A stretch of 32,398 bases of DNA. Source: a virus. Each line of letters opens with the position of its first letter. Position 1 is the first letter of the stretch. The stretch lies in IMG/VR virus record IMGVR_UViG_3300034198_014327, positions 1 to 32,398 of that record, one strand, 5' to 3'. Below the pieces are notes generated by a model. The model saw nothing but the letters and a program-made list of their open reading frames with translations. It did not search any database and was not told the DNA's origin. Below are positions 15,102 through 29,171 of this stretch, one piece after another. The translations under genes and the position numbers were made by a program.

Positions 15102-15275
15102 TTACTTCTTAACTTCCGCCTTCTTCCGCTTCTGATAATCCGCCGCCAGCACATCAACATTCTGAGCGAGTTGCTTTAGCGCTCCTGCCACGTCTGGATC
15201 TACTGGGCTTGGTAGCCTTTGGATTGTTAGCTGACAGCCTGAGAGGATGAGGGTTAGTACGATTAATTTTTTCAT
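15102..15275 (-). CDS. Small lipoprotein, outer-membrane spanin-like candidate
   Basis: A 57-residue protein found between called genes. It starts MKKLIVLTLILSGC, a textbook lipobox (L-S-G-C, Cys14), so the mature lipidated part is 44 residues. After a Pro-rich linker (RLPSPVDPD) comes a helix (AGALKQLAQNVDVLAADYQKR) with a Lys-rich end. Lipobox, proline linker and small size fit o-spanins (Rz1 type), which disrupt the outer membrane at lysis. No i-spanin gene overlaps it, and it sits far from the lysis block, so another surface role such as superinfection exclusion is possible. It begins as TAATG on the upstream exported protein gene. Confidence 0.72.
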   Translation of the reverse strand: MKKLIVLTLILSGCQLTIQRLPSPVDPDVAGALKQLAQNVDVLAADYQKRKKAEVKK

Positions 15276-15979
15276 TATGTCACCTTGATCATTGCCCAGT
15301 TATATGTCGAAGTCTCACCAACTATAGAGCATTTAACTGAGAAGCTTGTACCTGCTGATATTGCTGAGACATATGGCGCGCCAATTCCTGCCGTGCCTGA
15401 AATTGTGTTAGGCGAAAAAGCTAACGACATACCAGTTGATGCGTTTGTTGTTGACACTACAACTGCTGTGACACCGTTGCATGTAAATGTCCCTGATGTT
15501 GCTGCCGCGCCACCGCCTTTAACTGAAAGGGTAGTAGCTGCTTTTTGCATTATTATATCGCCACCGTTAGTCGCGTTTTGGGTGATAGTTCCTGAGTTGT
15601 TAATATCCCACATCACCGCAGTAGATGCGTTGAAAAATTGAACTTTTGCTGAAGCGTTACCTACTAGAAGGTTTACGTTGCTAGTTGTGTTATTACCGCC
15701 ATAAATATTTATAGCGCCCGCATTAGCGTTTTCGTTTCCTGTAAGAAGAATGTAAGATCCTCTATTCTCGGCTGCCCCTCCACCTCCAGCTATGATAGTT
15801 TGTCGGTTATCTGCGCCGTCTGCTGTTCCTTGAAGAATCCTAAAGGGAGTTGTTGCACCAACAATATCCCCCTGAGCCGTAGCCCCAGGCACTAAGCTAA
15901 ACGCGGAATAGAAAGCGCGATCCGCCTGCGCTAGTTGAGGGATTAAAAGCAATAAGGTAAAAAAAAGTAATTTCTTCAT
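15275..15979 (-). CDS. Exported beta-rich protein with Sec signal peptide
   Basis: A 234-residue protein. A clear signal peptide (MKKLLFFTLLLLIPQLAQA, cleavage probably after residue 19, A-Q-A) is followed by a repetitive Gly/Asn/Thr-rich chain. One part (about 60-100) reads GGGGAAENRGSYILLTGNE then INIYGGNN, like beta-helix or beta-prism surface proteins. The C-terminal part contains Cys residues (TFTCNGVTAVVVS; FSVKCSI) that could pair in the periplasm, and ends in YNWAMIKVT, a common end of phage-tail and fibre domains. Its location among virion genes while carrying an export signal is unusual. Ribosome site AAGGAAG. Confidence 0.75.
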   Translation of the reverse strand: MKKLLFFTLLLLIPQLAQADRAFYSAFSLVPGATAQGDIVGATTPFRILQGTADGADNRQTIIAGGGGAAENRGSYILLTGNENANAGAINIYGGNNTTSNVNLLVGNASAKVQFFNASTAVMWDINNSGTITQNATNGGDIIMQKAATTLSVKGGGAAATSGTFTCNGVTAVVVSTTNASTGMSLAFSPNTISGTAGIGAPYVSAISAGTSFSVKCSIVGETSTYNWAMIKVT

Positions 15980-15980
15980 T

Positions 15981-16340
15981 TTAATAACTTCCTTGCACTA
16001 CAACACTACCGACAGTAGGTGCTACTGTTGTGTATTTACAGCTTATATTTCCATTTGCATATAATCCAACGTCTCGAAGCTTTATAGTTTGACTACTATA
16101 TGCTGGAATAGTCCATGGGTTAGTAGATCCCGTATTTTGGCATGTTATAGAAGCATCAGTTAAATTAAGTATATCTAAATCAACCAGGCTATTTGTATTG
16201 GCTAAAAATGTTGTGTAAGCAACAGTAACGGACCCAAAAGCTATAGTAGCTGCTATAAATGTACCCTTAAATGGTGCACCTTGCGCCGAAACATCTAGAG
16301 CCATAAAAAGACTTAAAACTAGCGCTATCACTCTTTTCAT
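15981..16340 (-). CDS. Exported small virion-type domain protein with Sec signal peptide
   Basis: A 119-residue protein. Residues 1-19 (MKRVIALVLSLFMALDVSA) are a Sec signal peptide, cleavage likely before QGAPFKG. The mature part (about 100 residues) is a beta-sandwich-like chain: LVDLDILNLTDASITCQN, IPAYSSQTIKLRDVGLY, NISCKYT, and VGSVVVQGSY at the end. This resembles small phage structural proteins that normally lack a signal. Two Cys residues could form a disulfide outside the cytoplasm. GGAGG precedes the ATG; one nucleotide separates it from the next exported gene. Confidence 0.75.
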   Translation of the reverse strand: MKRVIALVLSLFMALDVSAQGAPFKGTFIAATIAFGSVTVAYTTFLANTNSLVDLDILNLTDASITCQNTGSTNPWTIPAYSSQTIKLRDVGLYANGNISCKYTTVAPTVGSVVVQGSY

Positions 16341-23150: not shown

Positions 23151-25570
23151 TACTGCTCCTCAGCTTTAACCGCTATAGTTTCGCCCTTGTCATCTTTAAT
23201 CGGAGTATAAACTCTAACTTTCTTTTTCTTTGGCTCTGCTTTATTTGCATCCCCTTCGCTGGCCTTAGCCTCACTACTTTGTTTTGGCATGTGAATAGTT
23301 ATATTTTGAGGCTTGCCCTTAGCGCTGCTTTCTATCATAGAACGCTCATGCTCTAAAACCATCTGGCTATTAAGCCTCTTTTCTTCCATCAGCTTTTCTT
23401 GCATTTCAAGCATTTTGGCTTGCTTATCGAACTCTAAACGGCTTGTGTCTAGCTGCTGAGTGAACTGTTGTTTGAATACTTCTAATTGACTATACAGCTT
23501 GTCTATTTCTGCTGTGCTCATAGTCTTACTAGCATCTATCTGGAGCCGTTGACTGCCTAGCTCATAATCCATTTGCAATTTCTGACCATCTAGCTGAAGT
23601 TTTTGTTGCTCAACAAATTGCTGGAATTGCTGATCCGCTTGTTTGAGCTGAAATTCGGCCTGAGATTTTTGCATCTCCATTTGGCCTTTCATCTGCTCAT
23701 TTTGCACCTGCATTTGAGCAACTTGAGTTTTAGCTTGCTCATTCTGCGCCTTCATCGCTTCATAGTCTGGAGGCAGAGGCGGTGGATTGTCTCTTGCTTC
23801 CTTATCGGCCGCTTCTATATCTTCTAGCGCTTTTTCCCATGAGCCTTCTACTGCTCTACCTGTTCTTAGGGTACGAACCGCGCCAAGTGCTGATTCTATC
23901 ATCGGCTTCATTAGCTCAGGTCTAAATTGCGCTATGTTCTGCAAGCCTGAAAATATGTTTTGAATCGCTTCAAGATACTGCATCCAGCGTGCCATTACCT
24001 GATCTTCATCAATAGCTATAGTGCTATCTGTCTCAATATCGACTCTGAAAGTTCTCATGCGATCGTCGCGTAGGAGCTGCAAGGCTGGAACGAATAGCCC
24101 TTGTTTATCCGGTGGCATTTGACCAACACCTGCCATTAGCCAGATTGTTTCATCTGCAAAAAAGCCAGGCTCAAACACCATTTCGGCCATTTTAGCAATT
24201 ATATCGCGGCAAAAGCGCTGCACATCCTGTTGCTTTTTCATCAGCTTAATAACAGTCCAGTGTGATTTCTGCTGTTGTGTATATACTGGATCGTTAGGGT
24301 CTGAACTGCCTCTTACAATATCTGGCATTGAGGTGATTTCATCAATCCACGCTTTTAGCTCTGATATACGGGCAGACAGAACGGGTATCGCGGCAACGCA
24401 TTGATCAAAAGGCAGCCAATCGACATTACCTTTAAGGCCGCCTTTCTCAGCGAATGCACCCCAATTATCTATTGGCTGCAAACCGCCGTCGGGCATTGTG
24501 AGCATGTTTTTAATGTCTTTAGTGTACTGAGAAGCCATTGCGCCAACTAGCTTAATACAGTCAACCATCGCGTTCATGCGCTTCATTGTGTAGTTGAGCT
24601 CTTCTGCCATCGCCTCATAAATGACATAATCGGCTGTAGGGTAAGTGCTATCGGTTGTTGTTGTAGCTACTAACGGGATAGGGCAACACCAGAAGTCTTT
24701 AATCTTATACGGGTCTTTTAGAAGCTTTAGCGGTGCCTGCTTATAGCCTGGGCTTATCCAAATAACCTGCTTTGATGGTAGGTCGTAAATGACATGCACT
24801 AAGGCTTGCTTGAGTAAATCATTCTGCTTATCTTTATCTTTATCTTTAGCTTTGCCCTCTTTACTGTCAAACGATACCGCCTTGCCAATCTCCTCGCCGA
24901 ACTCTGATATAAGCTCTTGCCTGGTCATGTATATATCTTTACAGCGCCATCTGACCTCGAATTGATTTCGCGCTATTGATTCTAGGTAGTCCTGCCAATA
25001 GACGGGGCAAACCTCTATTTTTTCTGTATTAGGCTTAGGCTGCTTGACTGGCATCCCTGCTTTATCGACTACTGCCTTACCTTCATCATCAACCATTGGC
25101 TCGAAGTCGGCTTTGTATTGGAGCCAAACCTGGCCGCGCCCTGGAAGCAACCTGTCTTGAACTGCTGCACTAATGGCATAATTAAACCTGTCCTGCTGGC
25201 TTAATAGCTGATAGTGCGTCGCTCTCTCTGCTACTTCTGCCGCCATGCGCCCAACTGGATCGCTGTCTTTGAACACGCGCTCAGCTACTACCTTAGGCAT
25301 ACGGCTATATAGCGCTGGCATGAGCACTTCCACGTTAGACCAAAGCACATTGAACATCTCGCCTAATGGGACAACGCCGTTTGAATCAGCTAAGTTGGTG
25401 TTCTTAGCGTTTTTATATTTCTTGATTATGCGCTCGCCGATACGTTCGAAATTCTGCTGGTCTTTGCACTCCCTGACTGACGCTATTTCTTTAAGCCATT
25501 TAGTTACAAGCGCCTCATCTGCTTGTGCATTAGGCTGCGGCTTATCATCTTCATTAATATCTTCAGTCAT
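23150..25570 (-). CDS. Portal protein
   Basis: An 806-residue protein directly after the large terminase (TAATG junction). The portal-type core spans about residues 50-560 (VPLGEMFNVLWSNVEVLMPALYSRMP at about 65-90; CPVYWQDYLESIARNQFEVRWRCKDIYMTR at about 187-216; MNAMVDCIKLVGAM; EITSMPDIVRGSSDPND). The C-terminal ~230 residues are an unusually long Gln/Met/Lys-rich coiled coil (about 585-745), then a Lys-rich end. Long C-terminal helices in portals of short-tailed phages can form a barrel inside the capsid. It forms the dodecameric ring through which DNA enters and leaves. Confidence 0.87.
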   Translation of the reverse strand: MTEDINEDDKPQPNAQADEALVTKWLKEIASVRECKDQQNFERIGERIIKKYKNAKNTNLADSNGVVPLGEMFNVLWSNVEVLMPALYSRMPKVVAERVFKDSDPVGRMAAEVAERATHYQLLSQQDRFNYAISAAVQDRLLPGRGQVWLQYKADFEPMVDDEGKAVVDKAGMPVKQPKPNTEKIEVCPVYWQDYLESIARNQFEVRWRCKDIYMTRQELISEFGEEIGKAVSFDSKEGKAKDKDKDKQNDLLKQALVHVIYDLPSKQVIWISPGYKQAPLKLLKDPYKIKDFWCCPIPLVATTTTDSTYPTADYVIYEAMAEELNYTMKRMNAMVDCIKLVGAMASQYTKDIKNMLTMPDGGLQPIDNWGAFAEKGGLKGNVDWLPFDQCVAAIPVLSARISELKAWIDEITSMPDIVRGSSDPNDPVYTQQQKSHWTVIKLMKKQQDVQRFCRDIIAKMAEMVFEPGFFADETIWLMAGVGQMPPDKQGLFVPALQLLRDDRMRTFRVDIETDSTIAIDEDQVMARWMQYLEAIQNIFSGLQNIAQFRPELMKPMIESALGAVRTLRTGRAVEGSWEKALEDIEAADKEARDNPPPLPPDYEAMKAQNEQAKTQVAQMQVQNEQMKGQMEMQKSQAEFQLKQADQQFQQFVEQQKLQLDGQKLQMDYELGSQRLQIDASKTMSTAEIDKLYSQLEVFKQQFTQQLDTSRLEFDKQAKMLEMQEKLMEEKRLNSQMVLEHERSMIESSAKGKPQNITIHMPKQSSEAKASEGDANKAEPKKKKVRVYTPIKDDKGETIAVKAEEQ

Positions 25571-27069
25571 TATCGCCTTCTAGACCTGTCTTGCTGGGTT
25601 TTAAGATCCCATAACTCGTTAATGGTAGGCTGTCTGAATTTTTTTTCCAAGGGTAATTCAGAAGATGGTGCTTCTCTGCTCCAGGGTCTTGCCATGCAGA
25701 TATAGCGAGTTTGTTCGTAGACGTGATCATCGGCTTCTGTGCACTCGTTCGGATCGTGCATATCGTGCTGCAAGTTCATGATAGTTTCTAGCTCATCCTG
25801 GCACTCTTCAAACCAGCCTATCATCGGTTGATCGTTCTTACCTACTAAGCGCTCTCTAAATTGCATATGCCCAGGCTGCCTTCGTCTATCAGCTTTCTGG
25901 AAATGAATACCTTCGCCGCTGAATATCTCGAATAGGCTAGGGCCGTGACCTTTGTGCTCGTCAATATCGCCGCCTGCTACCCTTGCGCTAATATGCTGGC
26001 CTACTTCTCTAGTCTTTAGCCCCTGAGCCACCATTGTAGCGGTTACTTTTGGTAATCCTTTGCCATACCAGGACTTATAGCAGATTAAGAACCCACGCGG
26101 TAAAGTAACCCCTTCACCTTGCACAGTTAAAACCTTAGTTGGCTCGCTCACTACTGCCCAATAGCCAATACTAAACGGATCTGCCTCGCCGCACGATCCC
26201 CAATCCATACCTTGCAGCCTTACCCAGTGCTCTGGGATTTTGAACGGCTTGAACAAGTGCTTAGCCCTATCAATTTCAGGGAAGAAAGCGCCAACCACCT
26301 GGTCAAAATCACCCTCCTCTAGCGCTTTAGCCATTCTAGGAGGTAAGCCGCGCAATGTCTTGCGGTATTCATCTGGATTGACCGATGGATTATCGTCTAG
26401 TTTTGCCTGTATAAACTGCCTACGCTTGCCGCCTTCTTCATCGGGCTGCTGAACTATCTCGGATATACCATCAGGACCACGCCTTAGAGCCTTGACGAAC
26501 TTAGCCTTAAAGAAAGCATGTCCAACACCCCCAGGGTTAAAAGTGTAAAGCGTTAGCGGTAGCAGCGCCTTGTACTCATTGGGTATTATAAGCGCATCAG
26601 GGATACGATTGCGGCCTCTGAGCATCTGAATCATGAACGGGCTAAACTGCTCAGCTTGCTCTAGGATTAAAACGTGCATTTCTGGACCTAACCAGCCGAA
26701 TACGTCTTTTTCGTGCTGGCAGTGGCATAGGAATATGCGCGAACCGTTATCAATTGGGCTAGCCTTATCTGGTCCGTTCCCAAACCTAACCTCATCTTTA
26801 ACTATGTTGACATATCCGCCTCTAACCCATGTAGCTAATAACGCTGGTAGCGAGGTCGGACCGGTGAAATGATTTTTGACCAGCTCATTATGAGTGCGCC
26901 TAAACAGGTATATGTTTAAGCCTGGAATAGCGTGAGCTAATAGAATTGCTAATACACGGGCTAGATGGCTCTTACCGCCTCCTGCCGCGCCTCCATAACC
27001 GATCTCGTTCGCGGTAGTCGTTAGCACCGCTGCTTGCTTAGGATGTAGCTCTAGATTTAGAGCGCTCAT
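25570..27069 (-). CDS. terL: Terminase large subunit
   Basis: A 499-residue packaging motor. N-terminal ATPase: Walker A GGAAGGGKSH (26-35, Lys33), LFRRT (55-59), a Walker-B-like HVLILEQAEQF (132-142) and the coupling motif TFNPGG (176-181). C-terminal RNase-H-like nuclease: Asp289 in GMDWG, Asp368/Asp370 in AGGDID and Asp447/448 in EADDHVYEQ. The Walker B acidic pair normally reads DE but here it is Glu137-Gln138, which is unusual. The length is normal. It acts with the small subunit and the portal. It overlaps the small terminase gene by ATGA. Confidence 0.93.
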   Translation of the reverse strand: MSALNLELHPKQAAVLTTTANEIGYGGAAGGGKSHLARVLAILLAHAIPGLNIYLFRRTHNELVKNHFTGPTSLPALLATWVRGGYVNIVKDEVRFGNGPDKASPIDNGSRIFLCHCQHEKDVFGWLGPEMHVLILEQAEQFSPFMIQMLRGRNRIPDALIIPNEYKALLPLTLYTFNPGGVGHAFFKAKFVKALRRGPDGISEIVQQPDEEGGKRRQFIQAKLDDNPSVNPDEYRKTLRGLPPRMAKALEEGDFDQVVGAFFPEIDRAKHLFKPFKIPEHWVRLQGMDWGSCGEADPFSIGYWAVVSEPTKVLTVQGEGVTLPRGFLICYKSWYGKGLPKVTATMVAQGLKTREVGQHISARVAGGDIDEHKGHGPSLFEIFSGEGIHFQKADRRRQPGHMQFRERLVGKNDQPMIGWFEECQDELETIMNLQHDMHDPNECTEADDHVYEQTRYICMARPWSREAPSSELPLEKKFRQPTINELWDLKTQQDRSRRR

Positions 27070-27509
27070 TTTTTAAGGGTTATGTTTAAAACTGGGATAA
27101 AAGGTTCTCCGTCTTTACCTGTAACTTCATGCTCTTGCTTATCTCGCCACTTTTGCGGCTGCCTATTCCTAAGCCATAGTGAACACGCGTTAGTATCAGG
27201 TGGCACTTCCTCTTGAAGCATTACAATATTGCCCTCTGGATTGAACACTTGCTTAACCTTCATAAAGCCCTTAGCTCTCCTAGCTAGCGCCTGTTCCACT
27301 TCGAAATCATGGTTTTGCTTAGCTTCAAGCATGGACTCCGAAAACTTACTGTGTTCTATTTTCCAAAGGTTAATAGTTGATTCAGTTACCTCAAAGAATT
27401 CAGCTAGATCCGCATCTGTTGCCCCTAGCGCACATAGTCGCCCTGCCTGTTTAGCATACTCAGCCTTATACTTAGTTGGTCGACCTCCAAGATCCTTATC
27501 TTTGCCCAT
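27066..27509 (-). CDS. terS: Terminase small subunit
   Basis: A 147-residue DNA-recognition subunit. The N-terminus GGRPTKYKAEYAKQAGRL is typical of many small terminases, followed by a helix-turn-helix (ATDADLAEFFEVTESTINLWKIEH, about 34-57) and the family signature CSLWLRNRQPQKWRDKQEHEV (about 111-131). It binds the packaging site, stimulates the large subunit and is encoded immediately upstream of it. The packaging site itself (cos or pac) is often within or near this gene; I could not identify it. Confidence 0.9.
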   Translation of the reverse strand: MGKDKDLGGRPTKYKAEYAKQAGRLCALGATDADLAEFFEVTESTINLWKIEHSKFSESMLEAKQNHDFEVEQALARRAKGFMKVKQVFNPEGNIVMLQEEVPPDTNACSLWLRNRQPQKWRDKQEHEVTGKDGEPFIPVLNITLKK

Positions 27510-27525
27510 GTGTCAATACTAAACC

Positions 27526-27867
27526 TTATTTTCCGTATCCGTAAGGGTTAAAAAGGCTGTTAGGTGATACAGGGACATTATCAAAACCAAGCGCTGTGCC
27601 TAATGGTGTCGTTAACTGCCTACCTGGTACTTGAGCAAGCCCTGTGCTTGGCACGTAGCCTCGCCCCATTTCGTAGACCATGGACGGGACTGGCACATAT
27701 ATACTCCCTGACGCTGGCCGTGTGCCTTGTAGCGATGGTTTATAGGCTTGATCTATAGCTGCAATCTCTCCTGGTCCGAAGCCGCCTAGGTATTCTGAGA
27801 AGGTGTACTTCTGCTGGGCTGTTGCAATTGTCGGGATTAGTAGCAATGCGATTAATAGCTTTTTCAT
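27526..27867 (-). CDS. Exported small protein with Sec signal peptide
   Basis: A 113-residue protein. MKKLLIALLLIPTIATA (1-17) is a Sec signal peptide with A-T-A cleavage. The ~95-residue mature part is rich in Gly, Pro, Tyr and Ser (SGSIYVPVPSMVYEMGRGYVPSTG) and ends in a glycine/tyrosine-rich NPYGYGK. No catalytic motif and no transmembrane anchor are visible. It would be released to the periplasm. It sits immediately upstream of the terminase genes; I do not recognise it. Confidence 0.72.
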   Translation of the reverse strand: MKKLLIALLLIPTIATAQQKYTFSEYLGGFGPGEIAAIDQAYKPSLQGTRPASGSIYVPVPSMVYEMGRGYVPSTGLAQVPGRQLTTPLGTALGFDNVPVSPNSLFNPYGYGK

Positions 27868-27868
27868 T

Positions 27869-28213
27869 TTAATACTCCAGTTTCTTAATTAATTTATACA
27901 TGTTCAGGGATTTAACGCTTGTGTAAATTGTACCATTTTCTAATGCTTTTATAACAATGTTTCTTATCTTATTAGGCTCCAAACCTGCGTTTTCGCAAAC
28001 CCAAACAAAAGTGCCTACTTCTGCTATATCGTCCTCTCGCCAGTTAAGTACCCATTTTAATGCATCCTTCTTTACCCGATTGCCGCAATCTATGCTTAAC
28101 CTCTTTGTGCTAGTTGCATCTAAAATTACCCTTTCTATTACAGCCATCCATAGCATCTGCTCAGGTGAAGCGGCATCATTAAATATTTCGGTGCTATAGG
28201 CTTTTTTCAACAC
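27869..28213 (-). CDS. GLEP-motif small phage protein, copy 2
   Basis: A 114-residue protein with KDALKWVLNWREDDIAEVGTF and FVWVCENAGLEPNKIRNIVIK (about 48-89). This W...(F)..VC...GLEP..(I/V)R pattern also appears in the gene at 28875-29171, and similar D-F..(V)CE.AGLDP..VR stretches are common in small phage proteins of unknown function. A helical DNA-binding-like role is possible but unproven. The start is uncertain: the frame begins with GTG at 28213, 15 nt after the preceding stop, and I see no ribosome site; an internal ATG (residue 20) would remove part of the shared region. Confidence 0.65.
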   Translation of the reverse strand: MLKKAYSTEIFNDAASPEQMLWMAVIERVILDATSTKRLSIDCGNRVKKDALKWVLNWREDDIAEVGTFVWVCENAGLEPNKIRNIVIKALENGTIYTSVKSLNMYKLIKKLEY

Positions 28214-28227
28214 GTATGTATTTTTTA

Positions 28228-28878
28228 TTATAAACTGAATTTCTTAATCTTTGATGCACATATCGGCCCAAGCGGTAGCAAATTACCCGTCCCTTCGATT
28301 AGGCTCTGCTCAACATAAGCGTTAGCGTTCATTAGGTTAGACCCCGCTTCATGGTCGCACCCGAAAATGCTGTGCCCCAACTCATGGGCTATACCCACTA
28401 CGGTATGCCGGAACCTATAATCTCCCGCTGTGTTATATTCCTGGGCTGTGGAGTAACTAAAGAACTGACCGAGAAAAGCGAAACCGGCCATATATCGAAT
28501 CCCGTCAATCGCAAACGGTGGCGCTAGAACGTGGATTGCTAATCCTGAGGTAAGTTTCCCCTCACCCCATAGAGTTTTGTACCAGCTATAGAACTCTTCA
28601 TTAAACGAGAAGAAGGTCGCTCCGCGCTCTCTGAGGTCGTAAAACGGGTCTGGCCTACGTTCCCCCTGCCGTCTCGATATCCTCACGCCATAGCCTTTAT
28701 AGTATTCTATAGCCCTCCTGACTGCCCTATCTCTAACTATTGGCCTGGCATATGCGTTATCGACTGAGACGACATAGAGAGGCACTGATGGTAGTCTAGG
28801 GGCGCTGAACGCCTGAGCGACTCCGAGTATCAAGGCCCACAGCAACATGCTGATTATAATCGCTAGTCCGTATCTCAT
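28228..28878 (-). CDS. Exported zinc metallopeptidase (metzincin-like)
   Basis: A 216-residue protein. A signal peptide (about 1-23, ending GVAQA) directs export. A catalytic zinc site is clear: AHELGHSIFGCDHE (164-177) with His165, Glu166, His169 and His176, and a Met in SNLMNAN (180-186) in the position of the Met-turn. The third His is one residue further away than in the classical HExxHxxGxxH consensus (H-x6-H rather than H-x5-H); from memory some bacterial metallopeptidase families use this longer spacing. Around it are LAIHVLAPPF (about 113-122) and YMAGFAFLGQFF. It probably cuts periplasmic or extracellular proteins. It is coupled by ATGA to the upstream gene. Confidence 0.82.
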   Translation of the reverse strand: MRYGLAIIISMLLWALILGVAQAFSAPRLPSVPLYVVSVDNAYARPIVRDRAVRRAIEYYKGYGVRISRRQGERRPDPFYDLRERGATFFSFNEEFYSWYKTLWGEGKLTSGLAIHVLAPPFAIDGIRYMAGFAFLGQFFSYSTAQEYNTAGDYRFRHTVVGIAHELGHSIFGCDHEAGSNLMNANAYVEQSLIEGTGNLLPLGPICASKIKKFSL

Positions 28879-29171
28879 TTTCTGTACTCGCTCATCCTAA
28901 CCACGTTTATTTGATTTTTTTCTATCATCCTTCTGACCCACCCAGGTTCAAGCCCTAGCAAATCGCACACGCTAACAAAACAGAAAATCCCATCTCTGGT
29001 GTCATCGTTTACCCACTTTACAGCGCTATCTTTTATTTCATTTTCCGGTGAGTCCAAATCATTCATTGCTAGGCTAAAAATGGCGTTAGCGATCATCCTA
29101 ATACTCTCATCTGGAACAAACCTTTCCTTAAAAGCCGCCAGCGTTAAACTTGATAGCCTATCAGTGCTCAT
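28875..29171 (-). CDS. GLEP-motif small phage protein, copy 1
   Basis: A 98-residue protein with KDSAVKWVNDDTRDGIFCFVS (about 47-67) and VCDLLGLEPGWVRRMIEKN (about 68-86). It shares KWV...F..VC...GLEP..(V/I)R with the 114-residue product at 27869-28213, which indicates distant paralogues. The remainder is helical. The type is common among uncharacterised phage proteins. Its ATG overlaps the previous stop as ATGA, and its own stop overlaps the start of the metallopeptidase gene, so the protease is translated with it. Function unknown. Confidence 0.72.
   Translation of the reverse strand: MSTDRLSSLTLAAFKERFVPDESIRMIANAIFSLAMNDLDSPENEIKDSAVKWVNDDTRDGIFCFVSVCDLLGLEPGWVRRMIEKNQINVVRMSEYRK

Follow-up and report, generated by a model that had tools for sequence, protein, structure and literature searches.

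A gene for a putative exported metzincin-like zinc peptidase lies upstream of the terminase genes in an uncultivated phage

Introduction

Mtz (LMRG_00713) is a secreted metzincin of phage origin that is found in Listeria and in listerial prophages (PMC8235301). It cleaves its lipoprotein partner Tim in a Glu-dependent manner, and the cells become more sensitive to lysis (PMC8235301). Protease activity of the host can also alter phage infection, as described for enterococcal GelE (PMC11100838). As for the zinc site, CLCA (HExxHxxxGxxDEY) and M64 (HExxHxxxxLxDEY) show that a third-ligand position shifted by one residue (+1 spacing) exists in zincins (PMC3650047).

Here we analyze a 32,398-bp IMG/VR virus record from an uncultivated phage (the window, i.e., the whole stretch of DNA). 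With moderate confidence, we read one of its gene products as a small metzincin-like zinc metallopeptidase that would be exported by Sec during late expression and would cut envelope proteins or exported phage proteins. An initial annotation had proposed a secreted protease here; a secreted metzincin-like peptidase is still the best reading, now backed by homologs in two sister phages, but the signal peptide appears not to be family-wide. The same annotation held that secreted metallopeptidases are rare in phage virion operons. They are rare, but Mtz provides a precedent (PMC8235301). We consider the finding to be probably real.

Results

The peptidase gene occupies positions 28228 to 28878 and encodes 216 amino acids from an ATG start, which is exactly the ORF named in the initial annotation. 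Like the genes of the region around it, the gene is on the minus strand, and the coordinates given below for this region refer to that strand. Its start overlaps by 4 bp the stop of an upstream gene (28875..29171, 98 aa), and a gap of 14 bp separates it from a downstream gene (27869..28213, 114 aa) for a small pre-terminase protein, which in related phages is likewise encoded ahead of the terminase genes. These two flanking genes are paralogous (BLASTP, E = 6e-7). They are followed by a 113-aa protein with a Sec-type signal (ATA|Q; 27526..27867), the terminase small subunit (27066..27509; phrog_309, E = 6e-43), the terminase large subunit (25570..27069; phrog_979, E = 5e-24) and a portal protein (phrog_12082), to which proteins of Myxococcus phage Mx8, among others, are distantly related; the operon leads on to the capsid. 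The peptidase gene had been placed right before the terminase genes; it is near them, but two small genes (27869–28213 and 27526–27867) intervene before the small subunit. Because the gene is packed into an operon leading to packaging, portal and capsid, we propose that it is expressed late.

Three features reported previously are indeed present in the encoded protein: the zinc motif HELGHSIFGCDHE (HExxHxxxGxxHE; residues 165–177, 28348..28386), a Met-turn-like SNLMN (residues 180–184, 28327..28341) and a Sec-type N-terminus. The residue numbering also holds, with His165, His169 and His176 as proposed ligands, Glu166 as proposed catalytic residue and Met183 as the Met of SNLMN. Met183 sits seven residues after His176, fitting a Met-turn; SNLMN is unalignable with the AAMACPN of the homologs described below and is only suggestive. 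The motif HELGHSIFGCDHE departs from the metzincin motif HExxHxxGxxH/D in that both the Gly and the third His come one residue later, the latter as had been claimed, with Phe172 at the Gly position, Asp175 at the canonical ligand position (position 11) and His176 at position 12.

A search for phage homologs, which the initial annotation had suggested, covered the neighborhoods of 80 related terminase genes and found them in two sister phages, L006 and L009. The L006 homolog (L006:1409-1888, 160 aa; tblastn E = 1e-5 over the 80 loci) carries HELGHSILKLKH, and the L009 homolog (L009:325-789, 155 aa) carries HELAHQCGLKH. In BLASTP, the window protein matches the L006 protein with E = 1e-9 and the L009 protein with E = 2e-5, and the latter two match each other with E = 2e-26. 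HELGH...H and the region spanning residues 115–176 are common to the three proteins. Within this region, residues 115–132 (IHVLAPPFAIDGIRYMAG; 28483..28536) lie outside the zinc motif and are conserved across the family, with P121, M130 and G132 invariant in the alignments. When the zinc motif was masked, the similarity between the window and L006 proteins persisted (z = 6.3; 0 of 3000 shuffles as good), and that between the window and L009 proteins was largely motif-dependent (z = 2.9; 41 of 3000 shuffles reached the score). The L006 and L009 proteins are clearly homologous (z = 38). Taken together, the masked L006 match and the L006–L009 homology argue for a three-member family that is held together beyond the zinc motif.

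The window protein as query found no relatives in viral contigs, phage records or plasmids, and its core alignment gave zero matches against genome contigs. Queries with the L009 protein or with member alignments recovered only the members themselves, and a scan with a gapped DNA pattern brought back the L009 contig itself and two loci that are unrelated or chance matches. No cellular homolog emerged from a profile search of 928 genomes belonging to the same phyla or classes as three genomes that carry the terminase, although this search was weak and had no positive control. Separately, a sequence-unrelated protein with HEFGH...H on a 49.6-kb viral contig (L087, 2-547) is possibly a different phage metallopeptidase.

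It is highly improbable that the HExxH of the window protein is a chance occurrence in an unrelated exported protein, an explanation that is already disfavored. HExxH alone appears in 0.44% of 300,000 shuffles of the protein, and no family database gives a match, as chance would allow; the extended motif HExxH-x(5,6)-[HD], however, appears in only 0.04% of the shuffles, and the site is kept in the L006 protein, whose homology survives motif masking.

The three His and Glu166 are invariant across the three homologs, and the spacing of the third His varies among them. The L006 homolog shares the +1 spacing, with Lys at position 11 and His at position 12, and departs from the canonical HExxHxxGxxH, whereas the L009 homolog conforms to it, with His at position 11. 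Because the L006 protein retains a His at +1 while its canonical position is occupied by Lys, the comparison favors His176 over Asp175 as the third ligand, and a snapalysin-like site with Asp175 in this role is less likely. There is a small chance that the protein retains a zincin fold and has lost peptidase activity, its site spoiled by the shifted third ligand. Such a loss would be consistent with the +1 spacing relative to the metzincin consensus, with the unalignable Met-turn and with the fact that substituted-site members are common in zincin families (PMC3650047), but three ligand candidates and the Glu have been kept in three strongly diverged homologs, and CLCA and M64 have equal spacing. 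In the active enzyme that we favor, zinc would be held by the three His, Glu166 would activate water, and the third ligand would be displaced by one residue inserted where the active-site helix ends.

The N-terminus of the window protein (MRYGLAIIISMLLWALILGVAQA|FS) is predicted to be a Sec-type signal peptide of residues 1–23 (28810..28878). By rule and by eye, it has Arg2, a hydrophobic core at about residues 5–20 and a plausible cut VAQA|FS after residue 23, whereas the site proposed by a simple script (LWA at 15) is earlier and less likely. The low-confidence AlphaFold model of the protein has a helix at residues 2–23. In the alignment, the L006 and L009 homologs begin at the first predicted strand, the one that comes after the signal region in the window protein, and their starts are fixed by tight packing against the preceding gene. 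Their N-termini are short, charge-interrupted and unlike good signal peptides, and the rule-based check flags both weakly. Since the two homologs are without a clear signal peptide, export is probably not a common function of the family; the signal peptide is probably particular to the window protein rather than a trait of all members.

Four phages of the group also encode proteins with Sec-type signals in the tail or fiber section of the structural operon, namely those of the window (15275–15979 and 15981–16340), L156 (17681-18175 and 18179-19249), L157 (448-999) and L159 (8286-9095). Signal peptides on virion-operon proteins were unexpected. The product of 15275–15979 shows a borderline match to a K1-lyase C-terminal domain (26.6 bits against a cut-off of 27).

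The phages of the window, L006 and L009 are close, with major capsid proteins 77% identical and terminases 68–69% identical. By comparison with the capsid, the L006 and L009 peptidases are only 23–26% identical to the window protein, and their genes lie several kilobases further upstream, among small genes. The records of the L003 and L005 phages cover more of the upstream region and contain no peptidase gene; equally close records without the gene end too near the terminase, judging from match positions, for absence to count. In codon usage, the window gene is the most atypical of the 35 genes tested (z = −6.6; the next is −4.6). Since the sister proteins are apparently signal-less and placed elsewhere upstream, and since the codon usage is so atypical, the exported form looks either recently acquired or relocated and fast-evolving.

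The same observations bear on a role as a superinfection or surface factor (moron), in which a recently acquired exported peptidase trims a host receptor or exposed protein. Given that host protease activity alters phage infection in the case of GelE, such a role is also conceivable, and it would agree with the codon usage, with the position of the gene between two paralogs and with its different location and strong divergence relative to sister phages that are so similar in capsid. We nevertheless regard it as unlikely: the stop–start overlaps bind the gene to the packaging and capsid operon, which would be late for exclusion, the sequence gives no evidence on a receptor, and the divergence may also reflect fast evolution in place.

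Small proteins with a CG...DP..C..HD pattern, phospholipase A2-like by eye, were also seen in L006 (3353-3703), L009 (3132-3395) and L010 (4102-4527), with no Pfam match for any of them. Small lipoproteins of about 70 aa (LSGC, LGGC) occur upstream of the terminase in L006 (4485-4703) and L009 (3415-3615).

We then consider the family to which the window protein could be assigned. No model of Pfam, NCBIfam, PHROG or PADLOC matches it above cut-off. The best Pfam matches are sub-threshold reprolysin models (16.3, 16.6, 16.3 and 13.7 bits against cut-offs of 22–27; E of about 0.01), and the protein thus falls short of the curated cut-off that would place it in the reprolysin-like M12B. Weak profile matches to PDB sequences are mostly to snake venom metzincins/metalloproteinases and ADAMs, the top single match being an unrelated ligase (E = 0.001). 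When its profile is aligned to those of cellular reprolysins and matrixins, the match is confined to the active-site stretch. Two AlphaFold runs on three sequences each gave pLDDT values of 36.8 and 42.3; given these low values, fold matches are only a lead, and the fold and the zinc site are predicted but unproven. The low-confidence L009 model has an archaemetzincin (4axq) as top PDB match (E = 0.79, not significant), and its first 50 matches include five further metzincins (venom metalloproteinase, MMP3 and ADAM17 among them), none of them significant and none with E below 0.7. Archaemetzincins of M54 carry the motif HExxHxxGxxHCx4CxM...CxxC; PF07998 gives no match, and the cysteine pattern is absent from the window sequence. 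The Pfam models of CLCA and M64 likewise give no match in hmmscan, and the window protein has His, not Asp, at the ligand position. As no curated family matches above its cut-off, the matches are restricted to the active site and the models are poor, we describe the window protein as metzincin-like and assign it to no named family; it is more orphan than exotic.

Three other identities were considered and rejected: a prohead protease, in view of the export signal; an M15 or M23 type endolysin peptidase, which gives no match and has a different motif; and a defense-system protein, for which PADLOC was negative.

Discussion

In the reading that we favor, the peptidase would be made with the virion genes and exported by Sec, and outside the cytoplasm it would most likely cut only a few proteins, either of the envelope or among those that the phage exports. 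Substrate and benefit are guesses, and the outcome could be an aid to lysis and release or a changed cell surface. Among the exported proteins, the 113-aa product of 27526–27867 is encoded closest by and is a candidate partner or substrate.

A more specific role would be the maturation of an exported phage protein, such as the product of 27526–27867, 15275–15979 or 15981–16340, in the way that Mtz cuts Tim. Sec-type starts occur in at least three further genes of the window, including the second gene downstream of the peptidase gene within its operon; sister phages, too, encode exported proteins in their tail region, and Mtz–Tim is a worked example. This role is nonetheless rather improbable, as neither L006 nor L009 has a partner next to the peptidase, the phage records searched gave zero relatives of the 113-aa protein, and the apparently signal-less homologs would not meet exported partners.

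A broader interpretation is tentative. The proteins may form a phage-specific minimal metzincin-like family in which the third ligand is naturally displaced by one residue and whose members stay in the cytoplasm in some sister phages but are exported here; as part of this interpretation, the same enzyme core might, equally tentatively, serve different compartments in closely related phages. If active, the enzyme would add a very small zinc peptidase family that present databases miss, would serve as a natural experiment on the limits of third-ligand displacement in a metzincin-like zinc site and would represent a case of related phages sending one enzyme core to different compartments.

Compared with the reprolysin-like M12B (PF13582, PF13583, PF13688), the window protein has sub-threshold matches over residues 128–186 and the HELGH helix in common, but the similarity is confined to the active site, and the window protein has an extra residue before the Gly. 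The archaemetzincins of M54 resemble the L006 and L009 homologs in being a small single domain starting at strand 1, whereas their second Cys-rich zinc motif after the third His is absent here and the window protein has an export signal. CLCA and M64 share with the window protein the equal +1 spacing and a Glu right after the third-ligand position, which is His in the window protein and Asp in theirs. Mtz differs from the window gene in having HExxHxxGxxH/D, an adjacent TIMP-like lipoprotein and a location after holin and lysin in prophages; the window gene has +1 spacing, no lipoprotein neighbor and a location upstream of the terminase. Nor does the layout follow the Mtz–Tim pair, as the next gene (27869–28213) is signal-less and the exported 113-aa protein is two genes on. 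By description, however, Mtz and the window protein are alike: both are small, Sec-exported zinc peptidases (as predicted here) that are phage-associated and have an extended HExxH and a Met-turn (only Met-turn-like here). If active, the window protein would be a second example, beside Listeria Mtz, of phage-exported peptidases altering the cell envelope.
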